64,000 nt of DNA from Myxococcales bacterium. Lineage in GTDB: Bacteria > Myxococcota_A > Polyangia > Polyangiales > Ga0077539. The notes beneath the pieces were generated by a model that did not search any database, was not told where the DNA came from, and saw nothing but the letters and a program-made list of their open reading frames with translations. The first letter of the stretch is position 1. Each line of letters begins with the position of its first letter. This document shows positions 21,639 through 48,450 of this stretch, in pieces. The translations under genes and the position numbers were made by a program. The stretch covers positions 1 to 64,000 of the forward strand of contig JAEUKH010000021.1 of the NCBI GenBank assembly GCA_016792845.1. Direction: 5' to 3'.

Positions 21639-21967
21639 CGTGGGCAGCGTATCACGGGCCTCACGCGACAACCCCAGCGAGCAGATCATTTTTGAACGAT
21701 TTGCGCGCTGCGACCGACCCGCTCAAGCGCTCGACGCGTCGCGAGGCGACACACCGCGCACCTCGAAGATCGCTCTACGGGTAGGCCTCGAAGCTCAAAG
21801 GCAGCGCACCGTACGCCGACGCCGTCTGCGAGCAGGCGCTTCGATGCTGTGGCGCCGATACCATTGACAGAGCGTCAAGATCGACGCGCCGAACACGACG
21901 GTGCGGCCTCAGCGGCGCCGCGCCCGCGTGCGTGAGCCTCGCTGAAACGGTTGAAACAACAGCGGTC
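21639..21967. other. Intergenic region at the left edge of the palindrome domain
   Basis: No coding frame is supported here. It contains the first YTGAC-N5-GTCAR site (21864-21878) and the second copy of the short repeat at 21942-21977. Confidence 0.5.
21864..21878. repeat. Palindrome site 1 (TTGAC-AGAGC-GTCAA)
   Basis: First copy from the left. It is intergenic, between the two barrel genes; nothing similar occurs in the preceding 21.8 kb. Confidence 0.9.
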
Positions 21968-21977
21968 TCAGAAGTGC
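21942..21977. repeat. Short repeat after barrel gene 2 (copy 2)
   Basis: CTGAAACGgTTGAAACAAcA followed by GCGGTCTCAGA; see 20803-20838. It overlaps the stop region of the 21968-22852 gene. Confidence 0.6.
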
Positions 21978-22852
21978 CAGAGGAGCCCGCCGTGACAGAG
22001 GAGCACGTCGCCCACCTCGAGCTCGGTGTTGGCCTCGCTCAGCGTGAGGTCGTAGCGAAGCCCCACGAGGAGCCCGAAATTGCCCGAGAGTTCAAGCAGC
22101 GCGCCGAGACCCGCCGAGGCCGAGACGCCGGTACCCGCGCCGCTCGCGCGGGTGGTCGAGCCCGACGTGGTCGACACGAGCGGCGAGAACGCGTCGACGG
22201 TGAGGTCGACGAAGGGGTGAAAGCTCCCCGTGCGCACGAGGTGATACCGCACCCCGATGCCGTAAGAGAGCACCGAGAGCGGTTCGGCGCTCGCGTCGGT
22301 AGGGCTCAACGCGCGAAGACCCACCTCGGCGCGCAACGCCAGACCGCCGCGGAGCATCACCCCAGCCTCGCCGAGCACGCTGAAGCCCGAACCGTAGGTG
22401 TCGGAGAGGGCGCTCCCCATCGGAACGGCCGCGCCCGCACCGCCCATCACAAACAAGCCAGGGCGCATCAGCTCTGACTCCGTCGGCGCAGGCGGCACAC
22501 GCACCATCGGATACACCGGCTGGCTCACCCCAATGGGAGGCTGAACATAGCTTCGCCCGGTTCGTACCGAACCCGTGACCGGCGGCGGCGCGTTGAACTC
22601 TTGCCCCGTCCCCGACACCGGCGGCGGCGCGTTGAACTCTTGCCCCGTCCCCGACACCGGCGGCGGCGCGCCGTAGTTGTCAGTCACCGGCGGCGGGGCC
22701 CCGGTGTTCACGTTGACATTGGCCCGCACCGTGCGACGCGTCGCAGGTTGGGCCGAGTCTGGGAGCGGGTTGGGGTCTGCCGAAGCGACCCGCGCCACAC
22801 TCAACACCCCCGCCGCGAGGAGCCCCACTGCACGTCGTCGCATCGTCGTCAT
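21968..22852 (-). CDS. Outer-membrane beta-barrel protein, intact paralogue
   Basis: 294 residues from the ATG at 22852. The signal peptide MTTMRRRAVGLLAAGVLSVARVASA is followed by a Pro-rich linker with three similar APPPV units (two identical 45-bp repeats around 22575-22665). A barrel domain follows (GFSVLGEAGVMLRGGLALRAEVGL, YGIGVRYHLVRTGSFHPFVDL), ending LLCHGGLLWHF. It is related along its length to the gene at 20829-21593. Probably an outer-membrane porin-like or structural protein; ligand unknown. Confidence 0.82.
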   Translation of the reverse strand: MTTMRRRAVGLLAAGVLSVARVASADPNPLPDSAQPATRRTVRANVNVNTGAPPPVTDNYGAPPPVSGTGQEFNAPPPVSGTGQEFNAPPPVTGSVRTGRSYVQPPIGVSQPVYPMVRVPPAPTESELMRPGLFVMGGAGAAVPMGSALSDTYGSGFSVLGEAGVMLRGGLALRAEVGLRALSPTDASAEPLSVLSYGIGVRYHLVRTGSFHPFVDLTVDAFSPLVSTTSGSTTRASGAGTGVSASAGLGALLELSGNFGLLVGLRYDLTLSEANTELEVGDVLLCHGGLLWHF

Positions 22853-22964
22853 GACGGCGGCGCTCGTATCACAAGCGTACAAAAGTGGCACTCGCACGCG
22901 CCAGATTTTCGGGCGCTCTCGGCGTTGTGCCGGGCGCGCCGCGGCCGATACACTCGGCCCCCTC

Positions 22965-23360
22965 ATGAGCGAGCAAGACACGGCGGGGGGCGGCCGCGAC
23001 GACGAGGCGGCACGCAGAGCGCGCGCCCGCGAACACATCGCCCGCGGCGAGCACGGGGCCGCCTGGGCCGCCTTGCACCCGCTCTGGCGAAACCTCAGCG
23101 CCCACGACGATCGCACCCCGGGGTGCCTCTGCGGGGCTTGCCTCAAGCCCGAGGTCGGCGCCCTCGAACACCAAGGGATGCGCTTCGAACGGCGCTTCGG
23201 CGCAGCCTGCGAGAAGGTGCTGTGGTTCTGGCTTCCGACAAGTTTGACAGGGCGTCAAGATGAGATCGTCGCCCGCGTCGATGCCGACCTCGCGGCACGC
23301 TATGGCGCGCAAAATGAAGACGACGAAGACTACGACGACGAAGACGGAGACGACGAATGA
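22965..23360 (+). CDS. Small protein with a CLCGAC motif
   Basis: 131 residues from the ATG at 22965 (MSEQDTAGG). Helical N-terminal half, then TPGCLCGACLKPE and a very acidic tail (NEDDEDYDDEDGDDE). The reading frame is open farther upstream but overlaps the divergent barrel gene's start. Its TGA overlaps the ATG of the HEAT-repeat gene (ATGA), so the two are coupled. A palindrome copy lies inside it. Function unknown; the tetra-Cys-like group may bind metal. Confidence 0.75.
   Translation: MSEQDTAGGGRDDEAARRARAREHIARGEHGAAWAALHPLWRNLSAHDDRTPGCLCGACLKPEVGALEHQGMRFERRFGAACEKVLWFWLPTSLTGRQDEIVARVDADLAARYGAQNEDDEDYDDEDGDDE
23244..23258. repeat. Palindrome site 2 (TTGAC-AGGGC-GTCAA)
   Basis: Inside the 22965-23360 gene, read as S-LTGRQ-D, that is, in the less common LTxRQ frame. 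Confidence 0.9.
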
Positions 23361-26116
23361 GTGCTGACAGCGTGTCAGACATGCTCTTGACGCTCCGCGA
23401 GGGCAGCCTGAGCGCGCGGGCCGCGGCGCTCTCGAAGCTCCCGGCGTCGCCGATCACCCGAGGGGTCGTTCACGAGCGCCTGCGGGTCGAGCGGGCCATC
23501 GAATTGAGGGTCGCCCTGCTGCGCTGGCTGGCGAGACACCCCGCCCACGAGAGCCTCGCGAGCGTCGAGGCGGCGCTCGATGCGGCCGCGCCGAGGGAGC
23601 GCGACGCCGCCGTTCGTGCGACCCAGGCGCACCGCGCGCGACACCTCGCGCCCGCCCTGCGACACCTCGCCCGCGAAGACGACACCTGGTGGGTGCGACG
23701 CACCGCCCTCTGGAGCCTCCTCGCCCTCAGCGGGCCCGCCGCCGTGGCGCCGCTCCTTGAGAGCCTCGATGACCCCTTCTGGCGCGTGCGCCATGCGGCC
23801 CTCCAGTGCCTTGAGCGGCTCGCCGTCGCCAACCTTGACAGCGTGTCAAACGCCATCGCGGGGCATCGCCCTGAGAGCGCCGCGGGGGCCGCCGCGCTCA
23901 CCTGGCTCGCGGCGCGGCGCGAGGGGCGCGAGCACGCCGCGCACGAGGCCGTCACGCCCGCGCGGGTGGCCGACCCGTGGTTCGACCCCGACCCCGCGGT
24001 GATCGCCGCGCGGCTCGCTTCGGCCGAGGGCGTCCCCCCTGAGGTGTGGGCGGCCTATCTCGCTGACCCCCACGAGAGCCTGCGCCGCCTCGCGGTGCGC
24101 CGCCTGCGTCGCGAAGGCACGCCCACGGCGCTGCGGGCGGCCTTGCGGTGGGCCGTCGACCCGCGGGTGCCCTACGCCCGCGCCTCGGTCGAGCGGGTGA
24201 TCACCGGCCTCGCGCCCGCGGCGGCCCGGGGGCTCCTCGAAGAGGCCCTCAAGACCCCCGCGCTTCGGCTGTTTGCGCTGCAATTTCTCAAGCGTCACCC
24301 CAGGCACCGCGACGCCGCGCTGCCCACCGACTGGGCGCACGACGCGCCCGCGCTGCGCGCCCTGAGCGTGAGCCTCGTGGCCGACGCCGAGGCCGACCCG
24401 GCCGCGTACCAACGGCTCCGCGCGGCCACCCTCGACCCCAGCGAGGCCGTGCGCGACGCCGCCGTCGAGGCCCTCGTCGCCCAAGGCTGTGACCCAGGGC
24501 CGGTGCGCCCCGAACAGCTCTCTCCGCGGGGGCGCCGTTGGCTCGCCGAGCACGCCCGCGCGCACGGCGACCTCGACGCCCTCAGGGGCCTCGCCGGTGA
24601 TGTTGACATGGTGTCAAAGGTGATCGCCCTCGGGGCCCTCGCGGGGCGCGCCGCCCTCGACGAGGCGACCCTCGGGGGGCTCCGTGAGGCGCACGACCCT
24701 TGGCTCCGCGCCCTCGCGGTGACCCCGAGCACGGCGGCCGAGGTGCTCGCCCACGACCCCGACCCGGTGCTGCGTCGCGCGGCGCGGGTGCGGCTCGGGG
24801 CGCTCACGCCCGCCCAGACGGCGGAGTGTCTGGCGTCGCGCGACCCTTGGCTGCGGGCTTCGGCCTTGGCCTCGCTCGGGCCCGACCCGGCCCACCTGGT
24901 CGACGCCCTTGAGGGCCTCGGCGCACGCGACGCGGGGGTCCGGCACGCCGCGCGGCGATGGCTCGACGCCCAGCCCGACCTGCCGACGCTGCTTTGGGCG
25001 CACCGCGACCACCCGCGGGTCGGCGTCGCGGCGCTGTCACGCTACATTCAAGGGCCGCACGCCGAGGCGAGGTGGCGCCAGTGCTGGGCCCGCGACGACC
25101 TCTCGGCAGCCCAGAGAGAGCACCTCAAGGCCCTCGCCCTGACGCTACGGGCGGCCGACATCGTCGCCCTCGGGGCGGAGCCCGTGCGGTACACCCGCGA
25201 GAAGATTGACAGTGTGTCAACAGTGGCGCGTCGGCGCTTCGGTCGCGCGGGTCGCGCGGTGGCGCCGCTGGCGCTCTCGGGGGTCTACGAGCTCGGGGCC
25301 GCCGCGCTCGATCAGGCCCGCGAGGCGGGGGTGAATCTGTTCTTCTGGGAGCCCGGGTACCATCGCTTGGGGCACTGGCTCCGGCGCAACGCGCGGCGTG
25401 ACCCCGAGGCCATGGTGGTGAGCGGGAGCTACGAGGCCTCGGAGCGGGCGATTCGCCGCGACGTCGAGCGGGCGCTGCGGGCGACGGGGCGCGAGCAGCT
25501 CGACGCGTTTCTGCTGTTCTGGGCGCGCTCGGCGGCGCGGCTCGATGCCGAGAGCTTCGAGCTCGTCGAGGCCTTGAAGCGCGAGGGCAAGGTGGCCGCG
25601 GTGGGCTTCTCGACGCACCACCGCACCCTGGCCCGCGAGGCCCTCGAAGCGCACCCGTGGGACGTGGTGATGGTGCGCCACTCGGCGGCCCACCCGGGCT
25701 GCGAAGACGAGCTCTTTGACACGGTGTCAAAAACAGGCGCGACGGCGCTGACCTTCAGCGCCATGAGCTACGGGCGCTTGCTCAAGGCCGCGCCCGGGAG
25801 CCCGCTCAACACGGCCCTCCCGCGCGCCGACGAGTGTTATCGCTTTGCGATGCAGCCCGCCGCGGTGGCGGCCAACATCGCGGCGCCGCGCACCGCCGAC
25901 GAGCTCGGGGTGGCCTTGCGGGCGCTCGACGGCGTCGGGCTCGACCCGGCCCGCGAGGCGGCGCTCCGGGCGCACGGGGCCGCGGTGCGCGGGCGCGGGC
26001 GTGCGTTCAACGCGCTCGTCCGTGCGCCGATCAGCGCCGAGTTGGGCCCGGGGGTCGACCTGGCCCTCGCGGCCCTGGGTGAGACCGACGACGACGCCTT
26101 GGCCGAGGTGGGGTGA
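23357..26116 (+). CDS. HEAT-repeat protein fused to a degenerate aldo-keto reductase domain
   Basis: 919 residues. About residues 15-600 are Ala/Leu/Arg-rich helical repeats of HEAT/PBS-lyase type (for example DPFWRVRHAALQCLERL, DPSEAVRDAAVEALVAQG). From about 620 on the sequence follows the aldo-keto reductase order (LALSGVYELGAAALDQAREAGVNLFFW, EQLDAFLLFWARS, VAAVGFSTHHR). However, the usual catalytic Lys and His positions read VVSGSY and LLFWAR, and the DxAxxYG motif is not intact, so catalysis is doubtful. It begins by ATGA overlap with the small gene upstream, carries five palindrome copies, and ends 240 bp before the retron RT. Confidence 0.85.
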   Translation: MSADSVSDMLLTLREGSLSARAAALSKLPASPITRGVVHERLRVERAIELRVALLRWLARHPAHESLASVEAALDAAAPRERDAAVRATQAHRARHLAPALRHLAREDDTWWVRRTALWSLLALSGPAAVAPLLESLDDPFWRVRHAALQCLERLAVANLDSVSNAIAGHRPESAAGAAALTWLAARREGREHAAHEAVTPARVADPWFDPDPAVIAARLASAEGVPPEVWAAYLADPHESLRRLAVRRLRREGTPTALRAALRWAVDPRVPYARASVERVITGLAPAAARGLLEEALKTPALRLFALQFLKRHPRHRDAALPTDWAHDAPALRALSVSLVADAEADPAAYQRLRAATLDPSEAVRDAAVEALVAQGCDPGPVRPEQLSPRGRRWLAEHARAHGDLDALRGLAGDVDMVSKVIALGALAGRAALDEATLGGLREAHDPWLRALAVTPSTAAEVLAHDPDPVLRRAARVRLGALTPAQTAECLASRDPWLRASALASLGPDPAHLVDALEGLGARDAGVRHAARRWLDAQPDLPTLLWAHRDHPRVGVAALSRYIQGPHAEARWRQCWARDDLSAAQREHLKALALTLRAADIVALGAEPVRYTREKIDSVSTVARRRFGRAGRAVAPLALSGVYELGAAALDQAREAGVNLFFWEPGYHRLGHWLRRNARRDPEAMVVSGSYEASERAIRRDVERALRATGREQLDAFLLFWARSAARLDAESFELVEALKREGKVAAVGFSTHHRTLAREALEAHPWDVVMVRHSAAHPGCEDELFDTVSKTGATALTFSAMSYGRLLKAAPGSPLNTALPRADECYRFAMQPAAVAANIAAPRTADELGVALRALDGVGLDPAREAALRAHGAAVRGRGRAFNALVRAPISAELGPGVDLALAALGETDDDALAEVG
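23364..23378. repeat. Palindrome site 3 (CTGAC-AGCGT-GTCAG)
   Basis: Third to seventh codons of the HEAT/AKR gene, read A-DSVS-D. Outer bases are C and G, still complementary. Confidence 0.88.
23835..23849. repeat. Palindrome site 4 (TTGAC-AGCGT-GTCAA)
   Basis: HEAT/AKR gene, read L-DSVS-N within the helical repeats. Confidence 0.9.
24603..24617. repeat. Palindrome site 5 (TTGAC-ATGGT-GTCAA)
   Basis: HEAT/AKR gene, read V-DMVS-K. Confidence 0.9.
25206..25220. repeat. Palindrome site 6 (TTGAC-AGTGT-GTCAA)
   Basis: HEAT/AKR gene, read I-DSVS-T, at the junction between the HEAT part and the reductase-like part. Confidence 0.9.
25716..25730. repeat. Palindrome site 7 (TTGAC-ACGGT-GTCAA)
   Basis: Reductase-like part of the HEAT/AKR gene, read F-DTVS-K. 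Confidence 0.9.
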
Positions 26117-26164
26117 TGGCGAAGAGCGGGTGTGATGGGCCTTGCGAGGCGGCGCGATTTCGTC

Positions 26165-26184: not shown

Positions 26185-26200
26185 ACAGGGCGGTGCCCGA

Positions 26201-26346: not shown

Positions 26347-26357
26347 CTGGAGTCCCG

Positions 26358-27803
26358 ATGAATCTGGTCAACCTCCTGGTCACCTTGCGTGACGCCCTGG
26401 TTGATTTTGAGGCCAACCGACAAAAGATCCTCACGCTCCTCAAGACGCACCAGGGGCTGAGCGAGTTCGAAGTGGCGCGCTATTTCGTGGCCGCCGAGGC
26501 TGCCCCGCGGGTGCACAAATACCTCGCGAGTCGCGACCCCCGCGAGCGTCGCATCGGGGTCGAGTGCGCGCGCTTCCTCTTGCCGCCGAACGACGCCGCC
26601 GCGGTGCTGCGTCGCGCCCTGGTCGACCCCGACACTTCCACCCGCGACCGCGCCGACCGGCTCCTCGCGCAGCTCGAACGCCAAGAGGCCCCCCTCCGCG
26701 CGCGTCGAAGCACCCCCGAGGCCGAGCTCGTCGACGCCTGGGGCCCCACGGGCTGGCGCTTCGGGCGCCTCCTGCGCAACCCCCCGGCGCGCAAAAAAGC
26801 CAAGCTCGCGCCGGTGCCCCGCGCCGTCTCGGCGGTGCTGAAATCCGAAGAGACCTTCCTCAAAGCGATCGAGGTTGACAGTGTGTCAGCACTTCAGCCC
26901 TTGTACCGCGCGGGCGACGGCCCTGGGGCGCCGTATGTGCGCTTCGAGATCGCCAAGCGCGGCGGCGGGGTGCGCGCGATCCTGGCCCCGCGCAAGGCCC
27001 TGAAGGGGGTTCAGCGGGCCCTCTACGAGAAGGTGCTCTCGAAGCTGGCGACCCACGACGCGGCGCACGGGTTTGTGCCCGGGCGCTCGGTGGTCACCAA
27101 CGCGAGGCCGCACCAAGGGGCCGTGACCATCTTGAAGGTCGACCTCGCAGACTACTTTCCGACGCTGCATTATCGCCGCGTTCAGGGGTATTTCGCGCGG
27201 GTGCTGAAGGCCAACGCCAAGGTCGCGACGCTCATCGCGGGCCTCACCACCCACCGCGACCGCCTGGCCGACGGGTATGTCACCCGCCCCGGGGTGATGC
27301 CGCAAGGGGCGCCCACCTCGCCGGCCCTCGCCAACCTGGTCAGCCGCCGCCTCGATGAGCGCCTCGACGGCCTCGCGAAGAAGGTCGGGCTCCGTTACAC
27401 CCGTTACGCCGACGACCTCACCTTCTCGTGGCACGAGGCCCCGCCCACGCGACAGGCCCTCGCGCGGGTGCTCTGGTGGGTGTCGCAGATCGCCCGCGAA
27501 GAAGGCTTCGCCCTCAACGAGCGTAAGACCCGCGTCTTGCGGCCGCACCAGCAGCAGCTCGTCACCGGGGTGGTGGTCAACGCGGGGCTCCATGTGCCGC
27601 GCGCCCTCAAGCGAACCCTCCGCGCGATGCTGCACGAGGCCCGGGTCAAGGGCGTCGAGGTCGCCGCGCGAGGCCGCGCCGATTTCTACAACACCCTCCT
27701 CGGACACGCCGCCTGGGTGAACGCCGTCGAGCCCGCCCTCGGGGCGCGCCTCCTCGCCGAGGTCAAGGCCCTCGCGGCCCGCGAAGGAGCCGCCCATGTT
27801 TGA
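26358..27803 (+). CDS. Retron reverse transcriptase
   Basis: 481 residues with an N-terminal helical extension of about 170 residues, as in the long RTs of Myxococcus-type retrons, followed by the RT domain. Motifs: AHGFVPGRSVVTNAR, DLADYFPTL (about 261), QGAPTSPALANL (about 315), RYADDLTFS with catalytic YADD at 350-353, and the retron thumb motif LVTGVVVN (about 400). It would synthesise msDNA from the RNA encoded just upstream. Its TGA lies 8 bases inside the next gene, so the two are coupled. It carries one palindrome copy between the extension and the RT domain. Confidence 0.93.
   Translation: MNLVNLLVTLRDALVDFEANRQKILTLLKTHQGLSEFEVARYFVAAEAAPRVHKYLASRDPRERRIGVECARFLLPPNDAAAVLRRALVDPDTSTRDRADRLLAQLERQEAPLRARRSTPEAELVDAWGPTGWRFGRLLRNPPARKKAKLAPVPRAVSAVLKSEETFLKAIEVDSVSALQPLYRAGDGPGAPYVRFEIAKRGGGVRAILAPRKALKGVQRALYEKVLSKLATHDAAHGFVPGRSVVTNARPHQGAVTILKVDLADYFPTLHYRRVQGYFARVLKANAKVATLIAGLTTHRDRLADGYVTRPGVMPQGAPTSPALANLVSRRLDERLDGLAKKVGLRYTRYADDLTFSWHEAPPTRQALARVLWWVSQIAREEGFALNERKTRVLRPHQQQLVTGVVVNAGLHVPRALKRTLRAMLHEARVKGVEVAARGRADFYNTLLGHAAWVNAVEPALGARLLAEVKALAAREGAAHV
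26875..26889. repeat. Palindrome site 8 (TTGAC-AGTGT-GTCAG)
   Basis: RT gene, read V-DSVS-A at about residue 174, just before the RT domain. Confidence 0.88.
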
Positions 27804-28761
27804 CGCCGAGCTCGCCGCGGTGATCGCCGACCCTCGCGATGACGTGCCGCGGCTGGTCTATGCTGACGCTGTGTCAACAGTTGACCCCGCGCGGGCGGAG
27901 TACATCCGTCTCGCGGTGGCGCTGGCGCAGCCGGGCAGCACGGCGAGCGAGCGGCGCGGGTACCGCGAGGTGTTGCGCGGGCTGTCGCGCTCGAACCTGG
28001 CGCGGTGGGAGAGCGCGCTGAAGGTCAGCGCCGCGGTGAGCTGGTCGCGAGGCTTTATTGACGGAGTGTCAGCGTCGTACCGGCCGCGCGCGGGTTGGCT
28101 CGACGTGGCGCGCCTGGCGCCGGTGACGAAGGTCGCGATCGGGTACCAGCGCGACGCCGCCGCGTGGGAGGCGCTGCTCGCAGCGTCGCTCGTGCCGCGG
28201 CTCGAACAGCTGCGGATCTCGGGGGCCGGGCGGCTCCTCGATCTGGCGTCGGTGCCCGTCGAGGCGCTTCGGTTTCTAGGGGTCTCGAGCATGGCCGCCA
28301 CGGTGCCCGAGGCCCTCGCGCAGCTGCCCTGGGTGAGCGCCCTCGACACCCTGATGATCAACTCGTCGCGGGCCTTCAACGACAGCGGTCTGAACACCCT
28401 CCTCGCCGCGCACCCCGCCGCCCGGTGGAAGAACCTCTACCTCTCGGGCGCCTCGATCACCGACGCGGGGCTCGAACAGCTCATCAGGCACCCGGTCTAC
28501 GAGGGCCTCGAGATCGTCTGCCTCAACCGCACGATGATCACCTCGGCGGGGGTCGCCGCGCTGGCCCAGAGCCCCCAAAGCCGCGGGCTCAAGATGCTCG
28601 AAGTGGCCAACACCAAGCTCGACCCCGCGGGGGTCACGGCGCTCATCCAGAGCGACACCCTCGGCGGCCTCACGCGGCTCAAGGTGCGCGGCCGGGTCAG
28701 CCGAAACGAGGCCCTCATCGCCGCGCTCCGCGCGCGCTACCCGAAGGTCGTCATCGCCTGA
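27796..28761 (+). CDS. TIGR02996-type leucine-rich-repeat protein coupled to the retron RT
   Basis: 321 residues. The N-terminus (FDAELAAVIADPRDDVPRLVYAD...DPARAEYIRL) matches the short TIGR02996 domain found in myxobacteria and planctomycetes ahead of repeat regions. In the family this segment usually reads YADWLEERGDP; here a palindrome copy makes it YADAVSTVDP. Residues about 170-310 are ribonuclease-inhibitor-type leucine-rich repeats (LYLSGASITDAGLEQL, VCLNRTMITSAGVAAL, LEVANTKLDPAGVTAL). Its ATG overlaps the RT stop by 8 bp, so it is a candidate retron accessory protein. Role unknown. Confidence 0.88.
   Translation: MFDAELAAVIADPRDDVPRLVYADAVSTVDPARAEYIRLAVALAQPGSTASERRGYREVLRGLSRSNLARWESALKVSAAVSWSRGFIDGVSASYRPRAGWLDVARLAPVTKVAIGYQRDAAAWEALLAASLVPRLEQLRISGAGRLLDLASVPVEALRFLGVSSMAATVPEALAQLPWVSALDTLMINSSRAFNDSGLNTLLAAHPAARWKNLYLSGASITDAGLEQLIRHPVYEGLEIVCLNRTMITSAGVAALAQSPQSRGLKMLEVANTKLDPAGVTALIQSDTLGGLTRLKVRGRVSRNEALIAALRARYPKVVIA
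27863..27877. repeat. Palindrome site 9 (CTGAC-GCTGT-GTCAA)
   Basis: LRR gene, read A-DAVS-T. It replaces the normally conserved WLEER of the TIGR02996 domain, and another TTGAC half-site follows four bases later. Confidence 0.88.
28058..28072. repeat. Palindrome site 10 (TTGAC-GGAGT-GTCAG)
   Basis: LRR gene, read I-DGVS-A. Confidence 0.88.
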
Positions 28762-28762
28762 G

Positions 28763-28777
28763 TTGACGGTGTGTCAA
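28763..28777. repeat. Palindrome site 11 (TTGAC-GGTGT-GTCAA)
   Basis: At the convergent junction: it begins one base after the LRR stop, and its right half contains the TGA stop (28774-28776) of the minus-strand gene. Confidence 0.9.
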
Positions 28778-29553
28778 AGCGCGGGCGCCGCCAGGGTCAT
28801 GACCCCGTCTTCGAAGCGATCGAGGGCGTACCCGAGGCTCCAGAGCGATTCGAGCTCGACGAAGGGGTGCGCCCCCCGTTCGGCGCGGGCGAGGCTCGCC
28901 CAGAACGCCACCTCGGCGGCGTCGTACGAGACCCCCGAGCGCGTCGCGACACATTGCGAGAGCACCCGCTCGCGCCGGGCCTCGGCGGCCGCGATGGCCT
29001 CAGCGGGCGGCCCGATCGCGGCGACCAGCGACGACCAGTGCGCGGGCCCGAGCCCTGGCGTGACGCCGCGGCCCTGACAGCGCGCCCGCCACCGCCGCGG
29101 GTCGACCACGCGCCAGCAGAGGGTCACCTCGCCCGATCTATTTGACAGTGTGTCAAAGCGCTCGCAGAGCGAGCGTCGGAGCGCGTCGGCGACGGCCTCG
29201 GCGGTGACGACGCCCTGCCAGTCGGCGCCCAGGGCCACGAGCGCCGAGAGCGTGGGAGGGGTATCGACGGCGCGCCCGAGGTCGTCGACGAAGCGACGGT
29301 GACGGTCGCTGAGCCACGCCTCGGGCGCCATGGCCTCGAAGGCCTCGCGCGGCGACACATGCCCGCGCCACGCCATGTTCGAACCCGCAAGACGCGAGAG
29401 CAAGGCCGAGAAGGGAGCAGGCCGCGTCACACACTCGGCCACCACCCGCGGCGGCGCCCCGGTGAGCTGTTCGAGCGCCGCGGCGAGGCCCGCGCGCGAC
29501 GGAGCCATCACCCGCGCGGCGAAGCGGTCGGCGTCTTCTTCCGGGTGAGTCAT
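28774..29553 (-). CDS. Hypothetical protein next to the retron
   Basis: 259 residues from the ATG at 29553. It starts MTHPEEDADRFAARVMAP, which recalls the EExANxFAxxLLxP end of ImmA/IrrE metallopeptidases, but the HExxH part is absent and nothing upstream supplies it, so the likeness may be chance. The rest is Ala/Arg/Leu-rich and helical. It is convergent with the LRR gene, ending inside a palindrome copy, and holds another copy in the middle. No function recognised. Confidence 0.65.
   Translation of the reverse strand: MTHPEEDADRFAARVMAPSRAGLAAALEQLTGAPPRVVAECVTRPAPFSALLSRLAGSNMAWRGHVSPREAFEAMAPEAWLSDRHRRFVDDLGRAVDTPPTLSALVALGADWQGVVTAEAVADALRRSLCERFDTLSNRSGEVTLCWRVVDPRRWRARCQGRGVTPGLGPAHWSSLVAAIGPPAEAIAAAEARRERVLSQCVATRSGVSYDAAEVAFWASLARAERGAHPFVELESLWSLGYALDRFEDGVMTLAAPAL
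29142..29156. repeat. Palindrome site 12 (TTGAC-AGTGT-GTCAA)
   Basis: Inside the minus-strand 28774-29553 gene, read F-DTLS-N on that strand. Confidence 0.9.
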
Positions 29554-29673: not shown

Positions 29674-29688
29674 TTGACGGTCAGTCAA
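29674..29688. repeat. Palindrome site 13 (TTGAC-GGTCA-GTCAA)
   Basis: Intergenic, ending 31 bp before the GTG start of the 29720 gene. The corresponding site 15 has exactly the same distance to its gene. Confidence 0.9.
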
Positions 29689-31383: not shown

Positions 31384-31398
31384 TTGACACTGTGTCAA
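31384..31398. repeat. Palindrome site 15 (TTGAC-ACTGT-GTCAA)
   Basis: Intergenic, ending 31 bp before the ATG of the 31430 gene. Confidence 0.9.
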
Positions 31399-37417: not shown

Positions 37418-37432
37418 TTGACAGGGTGTCAA
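37418..37432. repeat. Palindrome site 24 (TTGAC-AGGGT-GTCAA)
   Basis: At a convergent junction. Its right half supplies the TGA stop (37429-37431) of the minus-strand prepilin-peptidase gene. Confidence 0.9.
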
Positions 37433-39312: not shown

Positions 39313-40401
39313 CTAGCCCCGGAGCTCCGACCTTGGGGTGCCCGACTGCACCCTGAGATGCTGCAAGGTCGGCGCGAGCCCCGGGCTCAGCACGCTCGGG
39401 GTGACTTCGCTCGACGGAAACATCTGCACAAAATCGCCGTTGTGGGGCACCCGATCGACGAGCACCCTTTCGAGACACATCGACGTGTACTGGTCGGCCG
39501 CAAACTCGGGCGTGTTGGCGTTGAGCACCACGTCGAGATCGCCCGCCCGCGCCGCCCCCGCCACGCCCAGAATGCCCGACGCCTTGGGGCTCCAGTTGTC
39601 GGCCGCGGTGCCGTTCTCGCTGCACCCCCAGACGCCGCGATCGGTCTTGAAGAACAAGGTCTGATTGCCCACCGTGTGACCCGGGGTGCGGAGCAGCATC
39701 ACGCCGTCGCCGAGCATCACGTCGCCCTCGGTGAGCACCACCCGGTCGGGCGGCAGGTCGCTCAGCGCGCCCGACACGAACCACGCCCGCTGCATCGGGT
39801 GGAGCCGCGAGGCGCCCTCCCACTCGGCCCTCGGGCACAGCCATTTCGCCTTCGGAAAGCGCGCCCGCTGCGCGCCCGACACCGTGCCGAGGAGGCCCCG
39901 CAGGTCTTGGGTGTGGAGGTGATCAAAGGCCAGGTAGTCAATGTGCTCGACGCCCAGGCCCAACTGCCTCAGCTGAACCTCGATCGGGTCAAAGCGCGTG
40001 GCCAGGAGCCGCGCGCCGCGCTCTCCGACCTGGGCGATGAGCTTCGCGAAGAAGGGCGTGGCCCGCGAGGCCTCGATGTCGGTCGGGTTGAACAGCAAAC
40101 GCTTCAACGACCCGTGCTGTTGAAACTCAATCAACAACGCGCGGTGCGTGAGGGTGACAAAGGGCGCCGGCGAGAGCGCCGCGCCCTGAAACGCGAAGCG
40201 GCTCGGGTACACCAGCGTGGTGAGCGGCAAGGTCGCCACGGCCTGAACCGTCGGCCCCGCGCGAAAGGTCTCGCCCAAGCCCGCGCCCGCGTCGAGCACC
40301 CGCGCGTGACGCTCGGCGGTCGATGCGCTCAGCCACGCCGCGTCGAGCTGGGTGAGGAGACGAAGCTCGGGCGCGGTGCCCGTCGGTTGACGCTGTGTCA
40401 A
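39313..40401 (-). CDS. Metallo-beta-lactamase-fold protein with altered metal motif
   Basis: 362 residues if translation starts at the TTG at 40401 (MTQRQ), which has GAGG at a suitable distance. The fold is suggested by HIDYLAFDHLHTQDLRG, DGVMLLRTPGHTVGNQTLFF and VVLNANTPEF. The canonical HxHxDH is replaced by HLHTQD, so metal binding may be altered or lost. It follows the MATE gene by ten bases and is probably translated with it. Substrate unknown. Confidence 0.78.
   Translation of the reverse strand: MTQRQPTGTAPELRLLTQLDAAWLSASTAERHARVLDAGAGLGETFRAGPTVQAVATLPLTTLVYPSRFAFQGAALSPAPFVTLTHRALLIEFQQHGSLKRLLFNPTDIEASRATPFFAKLIAQVGERGARLLATRFDPIEVQLRQLGLGVEHIDYLAFDHLHTQDLRGLLGTVSGAQRARFPKAKWLCPRAEWEGASRLHPMQRAWFVSGALSDLPPDRVVLTEGDVMLGDGVMLLRTPGHTVGNQTLFFKTDRGVWGCSENGTAADNWSPKASGILGVAGAARAGDLDVVLNANTPEFAADQYTSMCLERVLVDRVPHNGDFVQMFPSSEVTPSVLSPGLAPTLQHLRVQSGTPRSELRG
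40387..40401. repeat. Palindrome site 25 (TTGAC-GCTGT-GTCAA)
   Basis: Its minus-strand TTG is the apparent start codon of the MBL-fold gene, reading MTQRQ. Confidence 0.9.
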
Positions 40402-40410
40402 GAGAGTGCC

Positions 40411-41817
40411 TCAGTGTAGGTCGGTAGGATGTGTCGCGGAGTGGCCGTGTGCTGACGAGGTGTCAAAAATTCTTTCGAGGCTCAGGGTGCGGCTGCGGCG
40501 GTGCCAGAACCCGATGAGGCCGAGGGCCACCGCGGCGAGGCCGGTGGCGAGGCCGATCCACATGCCGACGGCGCCGCGGCGGAGCACGAACGCGAAGAGA
40601 CAGCCTACCGGGAGGCCGATGAGCCAGTGGCCGATGAGGTTGGCCACCATCGGCGAGAGGGTGTCGCCGAGCCCGCGGAGGGCGCCCGAGAGCGTCACCT
40701 GGAGGCCGTCGAAGAGCTGAAAGAGCGCGGCACAAAACAAGAGCGCGTGGGCCAGCGTGAGCACCTCGGGGTCGAGCGAGAAGAGCCCGAGGAGCGGGCG
40801 CCACGCGAGCAAGAGGGTGAGCCCCGAGGCGAGCATGAACGTGGCCCCGAGGAGCACCGCCGCCCAGCCCGCGCGTCGGCTCTCGACGAGGGCGCCGCGC
40901 CCGAGGCTCTGCCCCACCCGCACGGTGCCCGCGGCCGAGAGCCCCAAGGGTACCATGAACGTGAAACTCGCGATCTGGAGCACCACCTGGTGCGCCGCCG
41001 CGGGCCCGGCGCCGATGCGGGCCATGAGCAGCGACGAGACCGAGAACACGCCGCCTTCGAGCACCAGCTGAACGCTCGCCGGGAGCCCCAGCTTCAAGAG
41101 CCTCTGCAAGCGCGCCGGGTCAGGCCCGAGGCCCGCATCGCGGAGCCGCAGGCCCTTGCGGGCGGCGTATCCGAGCAGGGCGAGCATCATGAAGACCCGC
41201 GACAAGACCGTCGCCCAGGCCGAGCCCGCCACGCCCAAGGCCGGGGCGCCCCAACGCCCCGTGACGAGGAGCTGGTTGACCGCGAAATTCACCCCGTTGG
41301 CGGCGAGGAGGATCACCATCGCGGCGCGGGTGTCGCCCAAGGCCTGGAGGGTCTGCCGGGCCGCGTTGAAGAGCAGCACCGGGCCGATGCTGAGGGCCAC
41401 CACGCGCAGAAAGGCTTGGGCGCCCGGCACCAGGGCGGGGTCGATGCCGAGCCCCGGGAGCCGCGAGGCGGCCCAGAAGAGCGCCGCCATCAGCGGCAGG
41501 CTCGCGCCCGCGGCGACGTAGAGCCCCTGAACGTAGGTGTGCGCGATCTCGCGGCGATCGCCCGCGCCGTAGGCCACCGCGGCGACGTGGTCGACGCCCA
41601 AGAGCATGCCGAGCCCGGCCGCGAAGGCGACGTAGTAGACCGCCGAGCCGACGCTCACGGCGCCGATCGCGGCGCGGCCGAGCTGGCCCACCGCGAGGGT
41701 GTCGACGAGCGACATGAGCATCACGCCGAGGTGACCCAAGATGACCGGCCACGCGAGGCTTAGGGTCGGTGTCAGCTCGGGGCGCAATCGCGAGAGCGCC
41801 GACCGCACAGAAGACAT
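40411..41817 (-). CDS. MATE-family multidrug/metabolite efflux transporter
   Basis: 468 residues from the ATG at 41817 (another at 41832), with 12 predicted helices in two related halves. Typical MATE segments are AWPVILGHLGVMLMSLVDTLAVGQLG, GSAVYYVAFAAGLGMLLG, and TLQALGDTRAAMVILLAANGVNFAVNQLL. It would export cationic or aromatic compounds by Na+ or H+ exchange across the inner membrane. The C-terminal tail contains a palindrome copy. The stop codon overlaps the ribosome site of the MBL-fold gene. Confidence 0.95.
   Translation of the reverse strand: MSSVRSALSRLRPELTPTLSLAWPVILGHLGVMLMSLVDTLAVGQLGRAAIGAVSVGSAVYYVAFAAGLGMLLGVDHVAAVAYGAGDRREIAHTYVQGLYVAAGASLPLMAALFWAASRLPGLGIDPALVPGAQAFLRVVALSIGPVLLFNAARQTLQALGDTRAAMVILLAANGVNFAVNQLLVTGRWGAPALGVAGSAWATVLSRVFMMLALLGYAARKGLRLRDAGLGPDPARLQRLLKLGLPASVQLVLEGGVFSVSSLLMARIGAGPAAAHQVVLQIASFTFMVPLGLSAAGTVRVGQSLGRGALVESRRAGWAAVLLGATFMLASGLTLLLAWRPLLGLFSLDPEVLTLAHALLFCAALFQLFDGLQVTLSGALRGLGDTLSPMVANLIGHWLIGLPVGCLFAFVLRRGAVGMWIGLATGLAAVALGLIGFWHRRSRTLSLERIFDTSSAHGHSATHPTDLH
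40452..40466. repeat. Palindrome site 26 (CTGAC-GAGGT-GTCAA)
   Basis: C-terminal tail of the MATE gene, read F-DTSS-A on the minus strand; only 50 bp from site 25. Confidence 0.88.
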
Positions 41818-44144: not shown

Positions 44145-45358
44145 AGCGGGCGAGGGGCCGCGCTGTGGGGCTCCTCGCGCTGCTCGCGGCGGGGCGTAGC
44201 GACGCCTGGCCGTTGCCCCTCGACACCCTCGACGACCTCTCTCGCGCGCTCTCCGCGCCGCTCTCGCCGACCGAGCCCGTGGCGCTCTGCCTGGCCTCGC
44301 ACGCAGCGACCGTGGCCCAACTCGAAGGCGCCCTCGCGACCCCCGAGCGCCGGGTCTCGCACAACGCCGCGGCGTGTTGGGGGCTCGCCCCGAGCGCCTC
44401 TTGGGTGCTCAGGGTCGAGGCGGGGGCCGGGGTTTCGGTGACACAACACACCGCCGACGGAGAGACCCGCGAACGCTCCCTCGGGGCCCTGAGCCCGCAT
44501 CTTGAGCGCGCGCTCGGGCTCTCGCGCCCGCCGCGCTGGCCCGAAGCCCCCGCGCCGCGGCTGCGCACGGTGATGATGCCCTTTCGTGAGCTGGTGGCCC
44601 TCGGCGTCGCGCGGCTCGACCCCGAAGGCCCTGAGACCCTGGTGCTCCTCGCGCCGACCCGGGTGCACCTCGCCCGCTTCGAAGCCGGGAGCTTGCGCTT
44701 TCTGACGCCTCCCCAGGGCGTCGACCTCAGCGCCGTCGGAGGGAGCCCTGAGCCGCTCCGCGAGCCGCTCGGGGTCGCATTGTTTGACAGTACGTCAAAT
44801 TCGATCGTCTTGCGCACCAGCGCGATGGCCGCCACGGTGCAGCTCAGGGTGGTCGCGGGGCGCTTCGAGGTGCGCGCGCTCGGCGCGGCCTGGCCCCTCA
44901 CCGCAGACCCTACAGGGCCTGGGTACTCGCTCCGCGTTGACCGTGTGGTGGGGCTCGATGGGGCCCTCGCGGGCTTGCCTGAGCGGGCACGCGGGGCGCT
45001 CCCGTTGGCCACCGCCGAGGGGCTCGTCGGGTGTGACGGCGAGGGGCAGTGCGGGGTGTACCGCGGGGCCGATGAAGTATTGACGCTGCGTCAAATTGTG
45101 CCGCCCGTTTGGGTCGGCGATGTCGACGAGGACGGGGTCGTCGAGGTGTTGGGCGCGAGCCCCGTGGGGCCCGAGGCGGGCGAGGCGCTGAGGGTGATGC
45201 GGGTTCGCGGCGCGAGCGTCACGGCGCACCCTGCCTTGCCCATCGCGGGGCCGATGCTCGGCCTCACGGTGGGGCGGGTGTTGACCGCCGAGAACAGCGT
45301 GGTGGTGGCCTGGCGCGACCGGGCGCGGCGCACCGTGACGCTCTCGGTGCTGCCGTGA
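44141..45358 (+). CDS. Exported hypothetical protein (FG-GAP/propeller-like)
   Basis: 405 residues from a GTG that overlaps the PARP stop by four bases. The N-terminal signal is MKRARGRAVGLLALLAAGRSDA. Later segments such as VARLDPEGPETLVLLAPTRVHLARFE and WVGDVDEDGVVEVLGASPVGPEAG resemble FG-GAP/VCBS repeats, including a calcium-type DVDEDG loop. It ends by GTGA overlap with the next gene. Probably periplasmic or surface. Two palindrome copies. Confidence 0.75.
   Translation: MKRARGRAVGLLALLAAGRSDAWPLPLDTLDDLSRALSAPLSPTEPVALCLASHAATVAQLEGALATPERRVSHNAAACWGLAPSASWVLRVEAGAGVSVTQHTADGETRERSLGALSPHLERALGLSRPPRWPEAPAPRLRTVMMPFRELVALGVARLDPEGPETLVLLAPTRVHLARFEAGSLRFLTPPQGVDLSAVGGSPEPLREPLGVALFDSTSNSIVLRTSAMAATVQLRVVAGRFEVRALGAAWPLTADPTGPGYSLRVDRVVGLDGALAGLPERARGALPLATAEGLVGCDGEGQCGVYRGADEVLTLRQIVPPVWVGDVDEDGVVEVLGASPVGPEAGEALRVMRVRGASVTAHPALPIAGPMLGLTVGRVLTAENSVVVAWRDRARRTVTLSVLP
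44784..44798. repeat. Palindrome site 28 (TTGAC-AGTAC-GTCAA)
   Basis: 44141-45358 gene, read F-DSTS-N; the spacer itself is nearly palindromic. Confidence 0.9.
45080..45094. repeat. Palindrome site 29 (TTGAC-GCTGC-GTCAA)
   Basis: 44141-45358 gene, read V-LTLRQ-I, the alternative frame. Confidence 0.9.
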
Positions 45359-46701
45359 CGCGGCTCTCGCGGCGCGCGCTCTTGTCTGCGATGGCGCTCG
45401 CCCCGGGGGTCGCAGGGGCGGTGCTGCGAACGCGCTACGGCGGCGTCGTGCGGTTGCCGGCCCTTGGGGTCGAGGCGGTGCGCGACCCGGGGTGGGTGAG
45501 CACACCCGAGGGCGCCTTTCAGGTTGCCCTCGAACACGCGACCTTGGCCCGAATGCGCGCCGACGAGGGCGTCGACTGGCCCCTCTTGCGTGAGCCGCCG
45601 ACGGTCGATGACACCCGCGCGGTGATGGTGCTCCGCGGGGGCATGCAGTGGGCGCCCGGTCGCGGGGTCGACGCCCACGCCGTGCTCGCCGCGTGGCGCC
45701 GCGTTCGGGCTGCTCCCCTCGGTCGTCTCGCGCTCTCGCTCGTCGCGCCCGGCGCGCAGCCTGAGGCCCTCGACCCGAGCACGCTGCGCGTCACCCTGGT
45801 GCGCCGCGGGGCGCTCGACGACCTCGGGCTCGCGCCGCCCCTCGCGCCGACCTCCGTCGCGGGGCGACAGCTCCGAGGGCTCGGCGCCTTCTCGGTCGAC
45901 CCGCAGCGCGACACGCGGTGGGTGCGCAACCCGAGCTGCCCCGCAGGGGGGGCGTTTCTTGACAGTGTGTCAATCGTTCAACACGAGACCCGCGCTGAGG
46001 CGCTCCGCGCGTTCGCGACGCGGGGGGTCGACGCCTCGTGGTGGGGGCCGTCGCTCTACGGGGGTGAGCGCGCGGTGAACACGGTTCAGAGCCGTGCGGG
46101 CGCGGTGGTGGGGTTGATCCCCGGGCGGGGCTCGCGGCTGGCCAACCCCGGCCACGCGCGGCGCATCGAGCAGATCGCAGAAGCGTTGACGGGGCGTCAA
46201 GGGTTGCTCTCGGCGCTGACCTTGGGGCGCGGCGCTGCGGCCCCCTCGACGGTCGAGGCTTTGCGGAGCGCGGTGGGGCGCGAGGTGCTTCAGATCGCGC
46301 GTCCGCTGCGTGACGGCATGCTCGACGCGGTGGGCGAGCGGCTCGTGGCGCTCTTCGACGCCGCGGGGATGCGGGCCACCTTGGTGGGCCCCGACGAGGG
46401 GGCGGCGCTGACGCTTCGGGCGGTGGCTCCGGTGGGGCGCGGCGAGGTGTGGGCCTTGGCGTCGTTCTTCGCGGTGGCCGCGTCTGAGGTCGGCGACGAG
46501 TCTGGCCCGGCGGCGATGGTGGGCGCCGAGGTGCCGCAACAGGGCGCCCTCGCGGCTGCCGTGTGGTCGCGCAGCGCGGCGGCGGTCTTGGGCCTCTGGG
46601 TGCCCTCGCTGGCCCTCGACCCCAGGGTCGAAGGCGCGCGCTTCGACGGGCTCGGGAGGCTCGTGCTCGATGACGCAGCCTTCGCCCGCGCGCCGGGGTA
46701 G
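45355..46701 (+). CDS. Exported protein resembling peptide-binding (SBP family 5) proteins
   Basis: 448 residues from the GTG at 45355, overlapping the previous stop. It begins MTRLSRRALLSAMALAPGVAGA, a twin-arginine-like signal. Later parts follow the order of family 5 extracellular solute-binding proteins (VMVLRGGMQWAPGRGVDAHAVLAAWRRVR, LRVTLVRRGALDDL, and a late AAVWSRSAAAVLGLWVPSL), but the match is distant. No permease genes are adjacent. A histidine kinase follows by 12 bp, so it could be an input protein for that kinase. Confidence 0.68.
   Translation: MTRLSRRALLSAMALAPGVAGAVLRTRYGGVVRLPALGVEAVRDPGWVSTPEGAFQVALEHATLARMRADEGVDWPLLREPPTVDDTRAVMVLRGGMQWAPGRGVDAHAVLAAWRRVRAAPLGRLALSLVAPGAQPEALDPSTLRVTLVRRGALDDLGLAPPLAPTSVAGRQLRGLGAFSVDPQRDTRWVRNPSCPAGGAFLDSVSIVQHETRAEALRAFATRGVDASWWGPSLYGGERAVNTVQSRAGAVVGLIPGRGSRLANPGHARRIEQIAEALTGRQGLLSALTLGRGAAAPSTVEALRSAVGREVLQIARPLRDGMLDAVGERLVALFDAAGMRATLVGPDEGAALTLRAVAPVGRGEVWALASFFAVAASEVGDESGPAAMVGAEVPQQGALAAAVWSRSAAAVLGLWVPSLALDPRVEGARFDGLGRLVLDDAAFARAPG
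45959..45973. repeat. Palindrome site 30 (TTGAC-AGTGT-GTCAA)
   Basis: 45355-46701 gene, read L-DSVS-I. Confidence 0.9.
46186..46200. repeat. Palindrome site 31 (TTGAC-GGGGC-GTCAA)
   Basis: 45355-46701 gene, read A-LTGRQ-G, the same peptide as site 2. Confidence 0.9.
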
Positions 46702-46713
46702 AGTCGCCGCGCC

Positions 46714-48450
46714 GTGGGACTGCGAACGCGCTTGTGGGTGGCGATGATGGTGAGCGCCGTGGTGCCCCTCGCGGGCGCCGGGTGGGGCGCACGCCGCGCG
46801 GTGGTGCGGCGCTTCGAAGAAGAAGACCAGCGTCGCCGCGAGGCCGCCGTGGCGCGGGTCGAGCGCAGCCTCGAAGGTCGCGCCAACGCCCAAGCGCGCT
46901 CGCTCCGGCGCTTCTGCGCGCACGACTACCTCGTCGACAGGGCCCTCGTTCAGCTCGGCAGCGGCGCCCCCGCCGAAGGGAGCCAAGACGCCCTCACCCT
47001 CGTGTGGCCCGAGGTGCAGACGGCGCTCGGGTTTGACACACTGTCAATGGTCTCTCAAGAGGGCCGGGTGTTGGCCTCGGCGCACTACCCTGGCCGTGTT
47101 GGGAGCCTCGATCTTGCGACCTTCGAGGTGGCGTCGCGGGCGCGGGCGAGCGCGTGGGTTCGGGCCGTTCGGGTGCGTGAGGGGCAAGCGCCGCACGACC
47201 GCCTGGTGTTAGAGAGCGCGTGTGTTCGGTCGCGGGGCCCGGTGGCGGTGGCGGTCTCTGGGGGGGTGGCCCTCGACGCGCAGCGCTTCGACGAGGCGGC
47301 CCAAGACGAGGGCGTGCGGGTGCGGCTGGTGCTGGCCCCGAGCGAGATGCCGGGCTCGTCGTCGCAGCGGGTGGTGAGCCTCCGCGGGGCTGACGGGCGG
47401 CCTGTGGCGTCGGTGCTGATCGAGCGCGACGACAAGCCCTTGCGGCGCCTCTTGTCGACGGTCGATGCCTTGCTGGCGGTGGCGGCGTTGGCCGCGGCGG
47501 TGGTGGCTGCGGCGGTGGCGGCGGCCTTCGCGACGCGTCTGGCGCGGCCCATTCGCCGGGTGGCCGAGGCGGCCGACAAGATCGCGGCGGGCGATCGCAT
47601 GGTCGAGCTCGATGTTCAGGCCTCGGCCGAGGTGGGGCGCATGGTGGCGGCGTTCAACGCCATGGTTCGCTCGCTCAACAGCGCCGAGAAGCGCGTACGC
47701 AGGGCCGAGCGCCTCGCCGCGTGGCGCGACATCGCGCGGCAGATGGCGCACGAGATCAAGAACCCGCTCACCCCGATTCGCATGGGGATCGAACGTCTAC
47801 GGAAGCTCCACGGGCGCAACGTCGAAGACTTCGCTGCGCGCTTTGTTGAAGAGACTGACGTGATCCTCGAAGAGGTCGAGCGGCTGCGGCGGCTCGTCGA
47901 AGACTTCTCACGCTTCGCGCGGATGCCACGCCCAAAGCTCGGGGCCGTGCGGCTGCACGAGCTCCTCGCGCATGTGGTTGACCTTCACGCGAACGAGAGC
48001 GTCTCGCTCGCATGGGTCGAAGAGGGCTGCGCGGTGGCGACGATGCCGCCCTTGAGGGCCGACCGCGACCAGCTCACACAGGTGTTGGTCAACCTGGTCT
48101 CGAACGCGACTTGGGCGGCAGAGAGCCGCGCGGGCCAAGACCCGGGGCGCGGCCCGGGGCGGGTGCGGCTGGTGGTGACCCAACCCGAGAGCACCCGGGT
48201 CAGGGTGAGCGTCGAAGACAACGGCGCGGGCATCGACCCCGATGTGATGCTGCGGCTCTTTGAACCCTATGTCACCCGACGCCCCGGGGGCACCGGGCTC
48301 GGGCTCGCCATCGCGTACCGCATCGCCGTCGATCACGGCGGCGCGCTCACGGCCCATTCGAGCCCAGAGGGGGCGCGCTTCGTGTTGGAGCTTCCGTTTC
48401 AGGGGCCCGCGGCGGTGGGGCTCGACACGCAGAACGACGAGCTCGGCTGA
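46714..48450 (+). CDS. Membrane sensor histidine kinase (NtrY-like)
   Basis: 578 residues from a GTG at 46714. One helix near 7-25, a periplasmic sensor region (about 30-245), a second helix (about 250-272, Ala/Val rich), HAMP, then HisKA with the phospho-acceptor in QMAHEIKNPLTPI and an HATPase domain (NLVSNATWAA, EDNGAGIDP, GGTGLGLAI). The HEIKNPLTPI sequence is typical of the NtrY group. No response regulator is adjacent. It is the last of three genes joined by overlaps or a 12-bp gap, and contains the rightmost palindrome copy. Confidence 0.94.
   Translation: MGLRTRLWVAMMVSAVVPLAGAGWGARRAVVRRFEEEDQRRREAAVARVERSLEGRANAQARSLRRFCAHDYLVDRALVQLGSGAPAEGSQDALTLVWPEVQTALGFDTLSMVSQEGRVLASAHYPGRVGSLDLATFEVASRARASAWVRAVRVREGQAPHDRLVLESACVRSRGPVAVAVSGGVALDAQRFDEAAQDEGVRVRLVLAPSEMPGSSSQRVVSLRGADGRPVASVLIERDDKPLRRLLSTVDALLAVAALAAAVVAAAVAAAFATRLARPIRRVAEAADKIAAGDRMVELDVQASAEVGRMVAAFNAMVRSLNSAEKRVRRAERLAAWRDIARQMAHEIKNPLTPIRMGIERLRKLHGRNVEDFAARFVEETDVILEEVERLRRLVEDFSRFARMPRPKLGAVRLHELLAHVVDLHANESVSLAWVEEGCAVATMPPLRADRDQLTQVLVNLVSNATWAAESRAGQDPGRGPGRVRLVVTQPESTRVRVSVEDNGAGIDPDVMLRLFEPYVTRRPGGTGLGLAIAYRIAVDHGGALTAHSSPEGARFVLELPFQGPAAVGLDTQNDELG
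47033..47047. repeat. Palindrome site 32 (TTGAC-ACACT-GTCAA)
   Basis: Sensor region of the histidine kinase gene, read F-DTLS-M. Last copy; none in the remaining 17 kb. Confidence 0.9.

Follow-up and report, generated by a model that had tools for sequence, protein, structure and literature searches.

The 64,000-nucleotide stretch of a Myxococcales genome analysed here (positions 1 to 64,000 of contig JAEUKH010000021.1, hereafter the window) carries a dispersed 15-bp interrupted palindrome, YTGAC-N5-GTCAR, that recurs in the genome in dense islands. We tentatively read its 217 genomic copies as putative targets of a helix-turn-helix protein that would bind as a dimer and build patches over about 36 islands rather than act at promoters, and put the probability of this reading at about 0.42. 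The strict dyad, the strong selection for the word, a recurring pair spacing and the lack of a promoter preference together point to a dimeric DNA-binding protein and not to promoter control.

In the window 31 matches were found, all at 21864-47047, and 22 of these are TTGAC-N5-GTCAA. In comparison, 100 dinucleotide shuffles gave a mean of 0.20 and at most 2 matches. The enrichment in the window is restricted to the 5-bp spacer: the other spacers from 0 to 19 bp yield 0-2 copies of the YTGAC form each, and the lone copy with a 7-bp spacer is at chance level. Genes were called with a custom script, and their start positions are predicted. Synonymous-codon shuffles (200 in each case), a conservative null because protein sequences are kept fixed, predict 0.29 genic sites for the called genes of the window (maximum 2) against 26 seen, and 3.35 (maximum 9) for the window together with 40 loci against 157 seen. 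Genome-wide (6.7 Mb, 56 contigs) there are 217 copies, compiled from four complementary patterns giving 35, 30, 85 and 67 rows, compared to 2 for a reversed control pattern. A sequence-only reading of the window had proposed a dispersed excess of the palindrome and had named a codon-aware null as a check; the excess is borne out and survives that null.

The outer bases are T and A in 182 of the 217 copies, one outer base is changed in 29 and both in 6. With a spacer that is mostly R-S-W-S-Y, the symmetric consensus reads Y-T-G-A-C-R-S-W-S-Y-G-T-C-A-R, and the bias towards a purine first and a pyrimidine last in the spacer, already noticed in the window, is real and holds over all genomic copies. 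An A/T preference is found 4 bp outside the palindrome. A larger repeat unit surrounding the site was rejected; the information stops about 4 bp outside. One-mismatch forms of TTGAC-N5-GTCAA are not enriched near sites, with 2 in 169 kb at up to 700 bp from a site and 6 in 372 kb elsewhere. The word is strict, and near-miss variants are not commoner beside the sites. In a literature search no paper was found that prints the consensus in any of six spellings, and a search combining TetR operators with these half-sites matched no paper. The earlier statement that no such site has been described holds for the literature searched; it has to be qualified in that the word is an apparent TetR operator in a related genus and recurs in some phage contigs.

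When copies are linked at 8 kb, 54 clusters result. Eighteen of them are single sites, of which some are probably due to chance, for example one in lexA (C5:94635, frame 0). The remaining 36 islands with at least two sites hold 199 of the 217 copies in 157 kb. By number of sites, the largest are the window's island (31), C28 (22), C39 (11) and C11 (10). Islands with at least five sites show a median gap of 701 bp over 132 gaps, with a coefficient of variation of 1.05. The sequence-only reading had described a repetition about every 0.8 kb; in the genome as a whole the spread is uneven. Among the genes that carry sites are coaBC, purD, rnc and one for a peptidase U32, besides transporters, kinases and many genes of unknown function. 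No phage structural families occur among those listed for genes of the window's island and other site-bearing genes (in one listing, the first 25 of 96). Confinement to a macrodomain was suspected from island-free contigs and dropped, as the island-free length fits chance (simulation P 0.31; contigs unordered). Contig C29 was omitted from this test; its first 20 kb (G000, locus L221) have a guanine-plus-cytosine (GC) content of 0.46 and a foreign tetranucleotide profile, and it is probably a contaminant.

Placement relative to genes was classed for 203 of the 217 sites, those in 41 loci, with the 14 sites outside these loci left out. While 157 sites are genic, 46 are intergenic, namely 22 in convergent, 22 in same-strand and 2 in divergent gaps. 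Densities were calculated for loci with at least five sites, a site no more than 4 bases from a gap edge being assigned to the gap. Convergent gaps contain 10.0 sites per kb (9 of 18 gaps hit), same-strand gaps 1.6 and 1.3 (7 of 41 and 2 of 26), divergent gaps 0.63 (2 of 18) and genes 0.70. Convergent 3' ends are strongly enriched and divergent gaps are not. Dispersed promoters were rejected for this genome, a -10-like hexamer (TANNNT at -10 spacing) being present on 1 of 406 site strands. Inside genes only two frames are used (128 and 29 of 157 sites). In the third, TGA would fall in frame; the TGA stop of a gene is supplied by 18 of the 203 sites.

Among the gaps between sites, a length of 64-66 bp recurs 8 times where 0.6 are expected, and none of 5000 simulations reached this number. 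Further recurring gaps are those of 133-134 bp (4, P 0.001) and 22 bp (2, P 0.02). Multiples of 156 bp among the gaps match the repeats of MopE-like proteins.

Comparison with relatives suggests that coding sequence is altered to create sites. In CoaBC, the residues EMRDAVTA of G005 correspond without a gap to EMFDSVSN here. The codons are ATG CGC GAC GCG GTC ACC GCC GTG in G005 and ATG TTT GAC AGT GTG TCA AAC CAC here, and the flanks VRSA (upstream) and MAAAV (downstream) are identical in 7 of 7 relatives shown. Similar replacements were seen in a 919-residue HEAT/aldo-keto protein (nearest relatives 43% identical), a MopE-like protein, a histidine kinase and a sigma-54 activator. Insertion of a 15-bp element was rejected where relatives align, the alignments being ungapped at the sites; exceptions, with gaps in the alignment, are a few repeat-protein pairs and the N-terminal part of the HEAT protein. 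Of 594 TCA codons in 431 called genes, 129 lie in sites.

The composition shows no sign that the islands are foreign. Nine island pieces correlate with site-free contigs at 0.87-0.975 in tetranucleotide usage, compared to 0.76-0.86 for loci of other genera of the family, and equal-sized site-free chunks cover a range similar to that of the island pieces. Codon usage separates island from flank genes no better than permuted labels do (leave-one-locus-out area under the curve 0.55; 30 permutations, mean 0.48, maximum 0.56). Import of the islands from another genus is therefore unsupported by tetranucleotide profiles or synonymous codon usage; a donor within the genus is conceivable. For coaBC and its neighbour the gene order is the same in G002.

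To search for the word in relatives, TTGAC-N5-GTCAA was counted in 317 genomes of the class. This genome contains 182 copies, followed by G129 (42), G043 (21) and G009 (17), with at most 13 in the others; no dense donor genome is among the 317. The copies of G129 are unclustered (3 for the control), 40 of 42 keep the R/Y spacer rule as judged by eye, and 8 of 8 examined are genic. They may reflect either a codon habit or the same system in a sparser form. None of the 21 copies of G043 keeps the spacer rule (by eye), and these are probably due to chance. In G009, 11 of 17 copies lie between genes; the settings seen among its copies are convergent gaps, the inside of genes and positions before genes. 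Two copies precede a TetR gene on contig C137 by 15 and 50 bp, and in G003 a 73% identical relative of this regulator has one site just upstream. Because sites directly precede both TetR genes, the word is probably the operator of this regulator. In the same G003 genome TTGACCAACTGTCAA lies 105-232 bases from the start of contigs C1, C6, C10, C32, C36 and C71, a repeat at assembly breaks. A pattern scan of named genomes gave at least 113 stretches, of which at least 11 have a second or third copy; in five of these the copies are 15-45 bp apart, as is usual for paired operators. The Planctomycetota metagenome-assembled genome SJ201 (L137) has the word three times in 4 kb.

The best match to the G009 TetR in this genome is a TetR gene in island C30 (32% over 99 residues, E 5.6e-6). 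Its called start is preceded by a site at about 30 bp, and a second site closely follows the gene end. Features of the protein are a TetR_N domain and an N-terminal tail rich in lysine. When 5.8 billion proteins were searched and 7994 candidates scored, only the protein itself and one 32% identical protein were returned, and a weak two-sequence structure model reached a mean predicted local distance difference test score (pLDDT) of 63. From these sequence relationships the C30 protein is a candidate binder, not a finding, because its recognition helix differs from that of the G009 regulator.

Exact 15-mer searches of IMG/VR yielded 327 stretches with the word. Of these, 282 contain it once, 32 twice and 13 at least three times. 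Group A consists of three contigs (GC 0.56-0.57) with 14 copies in 29.6 kb; it is defined by sample, GC and site form, the contigs sharing no DNA, and we take the samples to be soil. Phage B (GC 0.37) has 11 copies in 54.9 kb, and two contigs of GC 0.65-0.66 have 3 copies in 17.6 kb and 6 in 35.3 kb. L448 has 10 copies in 9.2 kb; all ten lie within 5.4 kb, several apparently just before small open reading frames (ORFs), which looks like an operator array. For the dense contigs the base-composition expectation is 0.03-0.15 each, ignoring that stretches were chosen for at least one copy, and the reversed control gave 0. Loci L282 and L283 were excluded from the counts as duplicates of L341 and L288. 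Overall, the word is dispersed in phage contigs of GC 0.37-0.66 (L288, L324, L341, L371, L378, L379, L391, L494 and L473). PHROGs assigned terminases in both A and L448, a portal protein in A, and a DNA polymerase and a DnaB-like helicase in B. Group A sites coincide with a stop codon or with C-termini, or lie between genes or in the middle of genes in the frame used here (VDTVSK, FDTVSN), with a promoter-like -35 box on 2 of 30 site strands. A ParB-like protein (ParB_N E 5e-12) is the product of an ORF on one A contig, and a relative (E 1.5e-62) is encoded on one GC-0.65 contig; sites lie 70 and 85 bp, respectively, ahead of the first start of these ORFs. These contigs (L288 and L494) are the only two with a ParB among 19 dense loci searched (L283 being a repeat of L288), which are partial contigs. 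A profile of the two phage ParBs had no match in 1.45 of the 6.7 Mb of this genome (22%).

In the reading that we favour, one protein dimer would occupy each palindrome, and neighbouring dimers would contact each other cooperatively. The predicted local nucleoprotein patches would cover the islands and act over gene bodies and gene ends. Their role would be organising or marking, that is compaction, tethering or segregation of the island stretches, in a mode akin to SlmA, Noc or MatP sites and not to a promoter regulon. As binder, the C30 TetR-family protein is the candidate, with a ParB-type protein, suggested by the phages that carry the word, as a possible alternative. As housekeeping genes (coaBC, purD, rnc) reside in the islands, we prefer an organising or marking role to repression. 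A nucleoid or segregation protein binding the palindrome had been among the roles first suggested; it fits best to the placement in gene bodies and at 3' ends, the lack of a promoter preference, the strict dyad and the pair spacing. An even spread over the genome is not seen.

It is possible, if doubtful, that the islands constitute a hitherto undescribed chromosome-marking system in which the word is selected into genes, housekeeping as well as accessory, in scattered stretches of up to 30 kb and read by an organising dimer, with several unlike phages using or mimicking the mark. None of the site systems used for comparison shows selection of a word that alters residues of core enzymes together with confinement to islands. 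If true, it would give a sequence handle on local chromosome organisation and a way to fish out the predicted protein. To our knowledge, site-specific nucleoid proteins are little known in this large bacterial group. With the word present in several phages, a possible connection of host chromosome marking to phage genomes can be tested directly.

Several observations weigh against patches built by an organising dimer. The gap sizes look random and not regular, as a requirement for coverage might predict, and a macrodomain signal is missing. The mixed gene content offers no reason for these islands rather than others. The classes of recurring gaps were chosen post hoc, and two of the eight pairs at 64-66 bp are one duplicated segment. 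In tetranucleotide correlation, three of the nine island pieces (C30, C39 and one of C28) do not exceed the 10th percentile reached by site-free chunks. The unclustered, rule-keeping copies in the distant G129 are not accounted for. With regard to the binder, the match between the C30 and G009 regulators covers the DNA-binding part only, two other TetR genes are close (6.1e-5 and 1.6e-4), the recognition helices differ (IGRTLLFYYF vs ISRQALYLHF), and sites are to be expected close to any gene that lies in an island.

Among the rival explanations, silencing of the kind known from stoperators or KorB survives best and is still unlikely. A repressor bound in genes and at gene ends would block transcription or slide, the islands would be switched off, and the system would perhaps be phage-derived. 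Repetition of the word in phage contigs (A, B and L448), some phage sites at stops and C-termini, and the two related phage ParBs with sites upstream are in accordance with this. L5 stoperators have been proposed to block elongation (PMC3029335), and KorB reaches promoters up to 1.5 kb away by sliding (PMC11790492). However, housekeeping genes lie inside the islands, promoters are not preferred, no ParB relative was found in the searched 22% of the genome, and L5 stoperators are asymmetric and oriented, in contrast to the palindromes here.

A tag for DNA uptake or recombination among close kin, with the islands as recently exchanged tracts, is rated less probable still. The local density of about one site per 0.7 kb, the location in coding DNA and the enrichment at convergent 3' ends resemble features of uptake sequences, and the GC content at third codon positions (GC3) is slightly higher in island genes than in flanks (0.9 points, P 0.08). 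Dense tagging is, however, limited to 157 kb of a composition near that of the rest of the genome, the coaBC gene order is kept in G002, the class genomes include no dense donor, and one-mismatch variants are few. The uptake mark considered in the sequence-only reading is less likely, given a word restricted to islands of native composition.

A classical TetR-family regulon with unusually many operators appears improbable. The apparent TetR operators in G009 and G003 and the site upstream of the C30 TetR gene speak for it; the predominance of genic sites, the location of only 2 among the 46 intergenic ones in divergent gaps and the near absence of -10-like hexamers speak against it. A target of a DNA methyltransferase or another DNA modification would be in line with the strict bipartite palindrome but alone gives no reason for islands or changed protein sequences, and has very little probability. 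An RNA hairpin in transcripts is the least probable: sites lie mostly in transcribed DNA and each self-pairs on one strand, but one-mismatch forms, including G-U-tolerant ones, are not enriched, and the outer pair on the sense strand (U-G 12 vs C-A 6) shows no clear bias.

The island of the window (C13, 21864..47047) comprises its 31 copies in 25.2 kb, with site-free flanks of 21.9 and 17.0 kb in the window. It begins with an intergenic site (TTGACAGAGCGTCAA, 21864..21878) and one that is genic by gene call (TTGACAGGGCGTCAA, 23244..23258). CTGACAGCGTGTCAG (23364..23378) occupies codons 3-8 of the gene at 23357-26116, whose product combines HEAT repeats with an aldo/keto reductase; several named myxobacteria have relatives, the nearest relative being 43% identical. 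The genic sites TTGACAGCGTGTCAA (23835..23849, coding for LDSVSN), TTGACATGGTGTCAA (24603..24617), TTGACAGTGTGTCAA (25206..25220) and TTGACACGGTGTCAA (25716..25730) follow, the last coding for FDTVSK at a position that is LPVAR-like in the majority of 11 relatives with 34-43% identity. TTGACAGTGTGTCAG (26875..26889) lies in a retron-like reverse transcriptase gene (26358-27803) whose top NCBIfam matches are retron reverse transcriptase families, under the curated cut-offs. Next are the genic CTGACGCTGTGTCAA (27863..27877) and TTGACGGAGTGTCAG (28058..28072), TTGACGGTGTGTCAA (28763..28777) between convergent genes, a genic second copy of TTGACAGTGTGTCAA (29142..29156), and TTGACGGTCAGTCAA (29674..29688), one of the two divergent intergenic sites among the 203 classed.

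Further downstream, TTGACGGTCTGTCAA (30687..30701) is genic and TTGACACTGTGTCAA (31384..31398) lies in a same-strand gene gap. Genic sites are CTGACAGAGTGTCAA (32022..32036), TTGACACGCTGTCAA (32175..32189), TTGACAGTGTGTCAG again (32424..32438), TTGACACAACGTCAA (33728..33742; VDTTSN vs VDTQAN in the G002 alignment), TTGACTTCGCGTCAA (35324..35338; VDFASS vs ADFVSA in the G002 alignment), TTGACGCTGGGTCAA (35962..35976), TTGACACACTGTCAG (36223..36237) and TTGACGTCGCGTCAG (37039..37053). No relatives of the protein at 31430-33079 were found in named genomes. Convergent genes flank TTGACAGGGTGTCAA (37418..37432). TTGACGCTGTGTCAA (40387..40401) coincides with the called start of gene 39313-40401 and forms a 65-bp pair with CTGACGAGGTGTCAA (40452..40466) at the C-terminal end of the MatE gene 40411-41787. 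The last five, all genic, are TTGACAGTACGTCAA (44784..44798), TTGACGCTGCGTCAA (45080..45094), a third TTGACAGTGTGTCAA (45959..45973), TTGACGGGGCGTCAA (46186..46200) and TTGACACACTGTCAA (47033..47047), the latter in a histidine kinase gene (FDTLSM vs FAALSL in the G001 alignment). Elsewhere in the window, 42669-44144 encodes a bacterial WGR-PARP_reg-PARP protein, and 2089-2316 shares 79% identity with a portion of L010:1735-2258; the latter stretch is repeated many times across the genome, in some cases at contig ends (C11, C39, C41).

Among known systems, the nucleoid occlusion sites of E. coli are similar in being palindromic and mainly in coding DNA, and their binder SlmA belongs to the TetR family (PMC3116907 and PMC4726725). 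Sites here are likewise palindromic and mostly genic. SlmA-binding sites are, however, GTGAGTACTCAC, number 24-52 and are underrepresented in the terminus region (Ter) or absent from it, while TTGAC-RSWSY-GTCAA forms dense islands without a macrodomain signal. The Ter sites matS (GTGAC-RNY-GTCAC, 13 bp, 23 copies; PMC3116907) share the palindromic form of a chromosome-domain site and the TGAC...GTCA arms. The word described here differs by its 15 bp, the outer Y/R and the N5 spacer, with 199 of 217 copies in 36 islands. For Noc, about 70 sites with a 14-bp palindromic consensus are given in PMC4726725. The likeness to Noc and KorB, both of the ParB family, consists in the two phage contigs that carry the word beside ParB genes, whereas the searched 22% of this genome yielded no ParB relative. 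The site sequences of Noc and KorB also differ from the word.

Stoperators of the phages L5 and Bxb1 are 24-34 repressor sites throughout the genome, mainly intergenic for L5, whose site contains TGTCAA (PMC3029335). They are asymmetric, oriented, 13 bp long and of phage, in contrast to palindromes in chromosomal genes. Uptake sequences of Neisseria and Pasteurellaceae are short, non-palindromic words that occur roughly once per kb, both within genes and at their ends. They reach hundreds to thousands of copies per genome (PMC2346458). The word here is palindromic and bound to islands. Closest in sequence are the probable TetR operators of G009 and G003, the same 15-bp word before a TetR gene in few copies (17 in G009), compared to 217 mostly genic copies in this genome.

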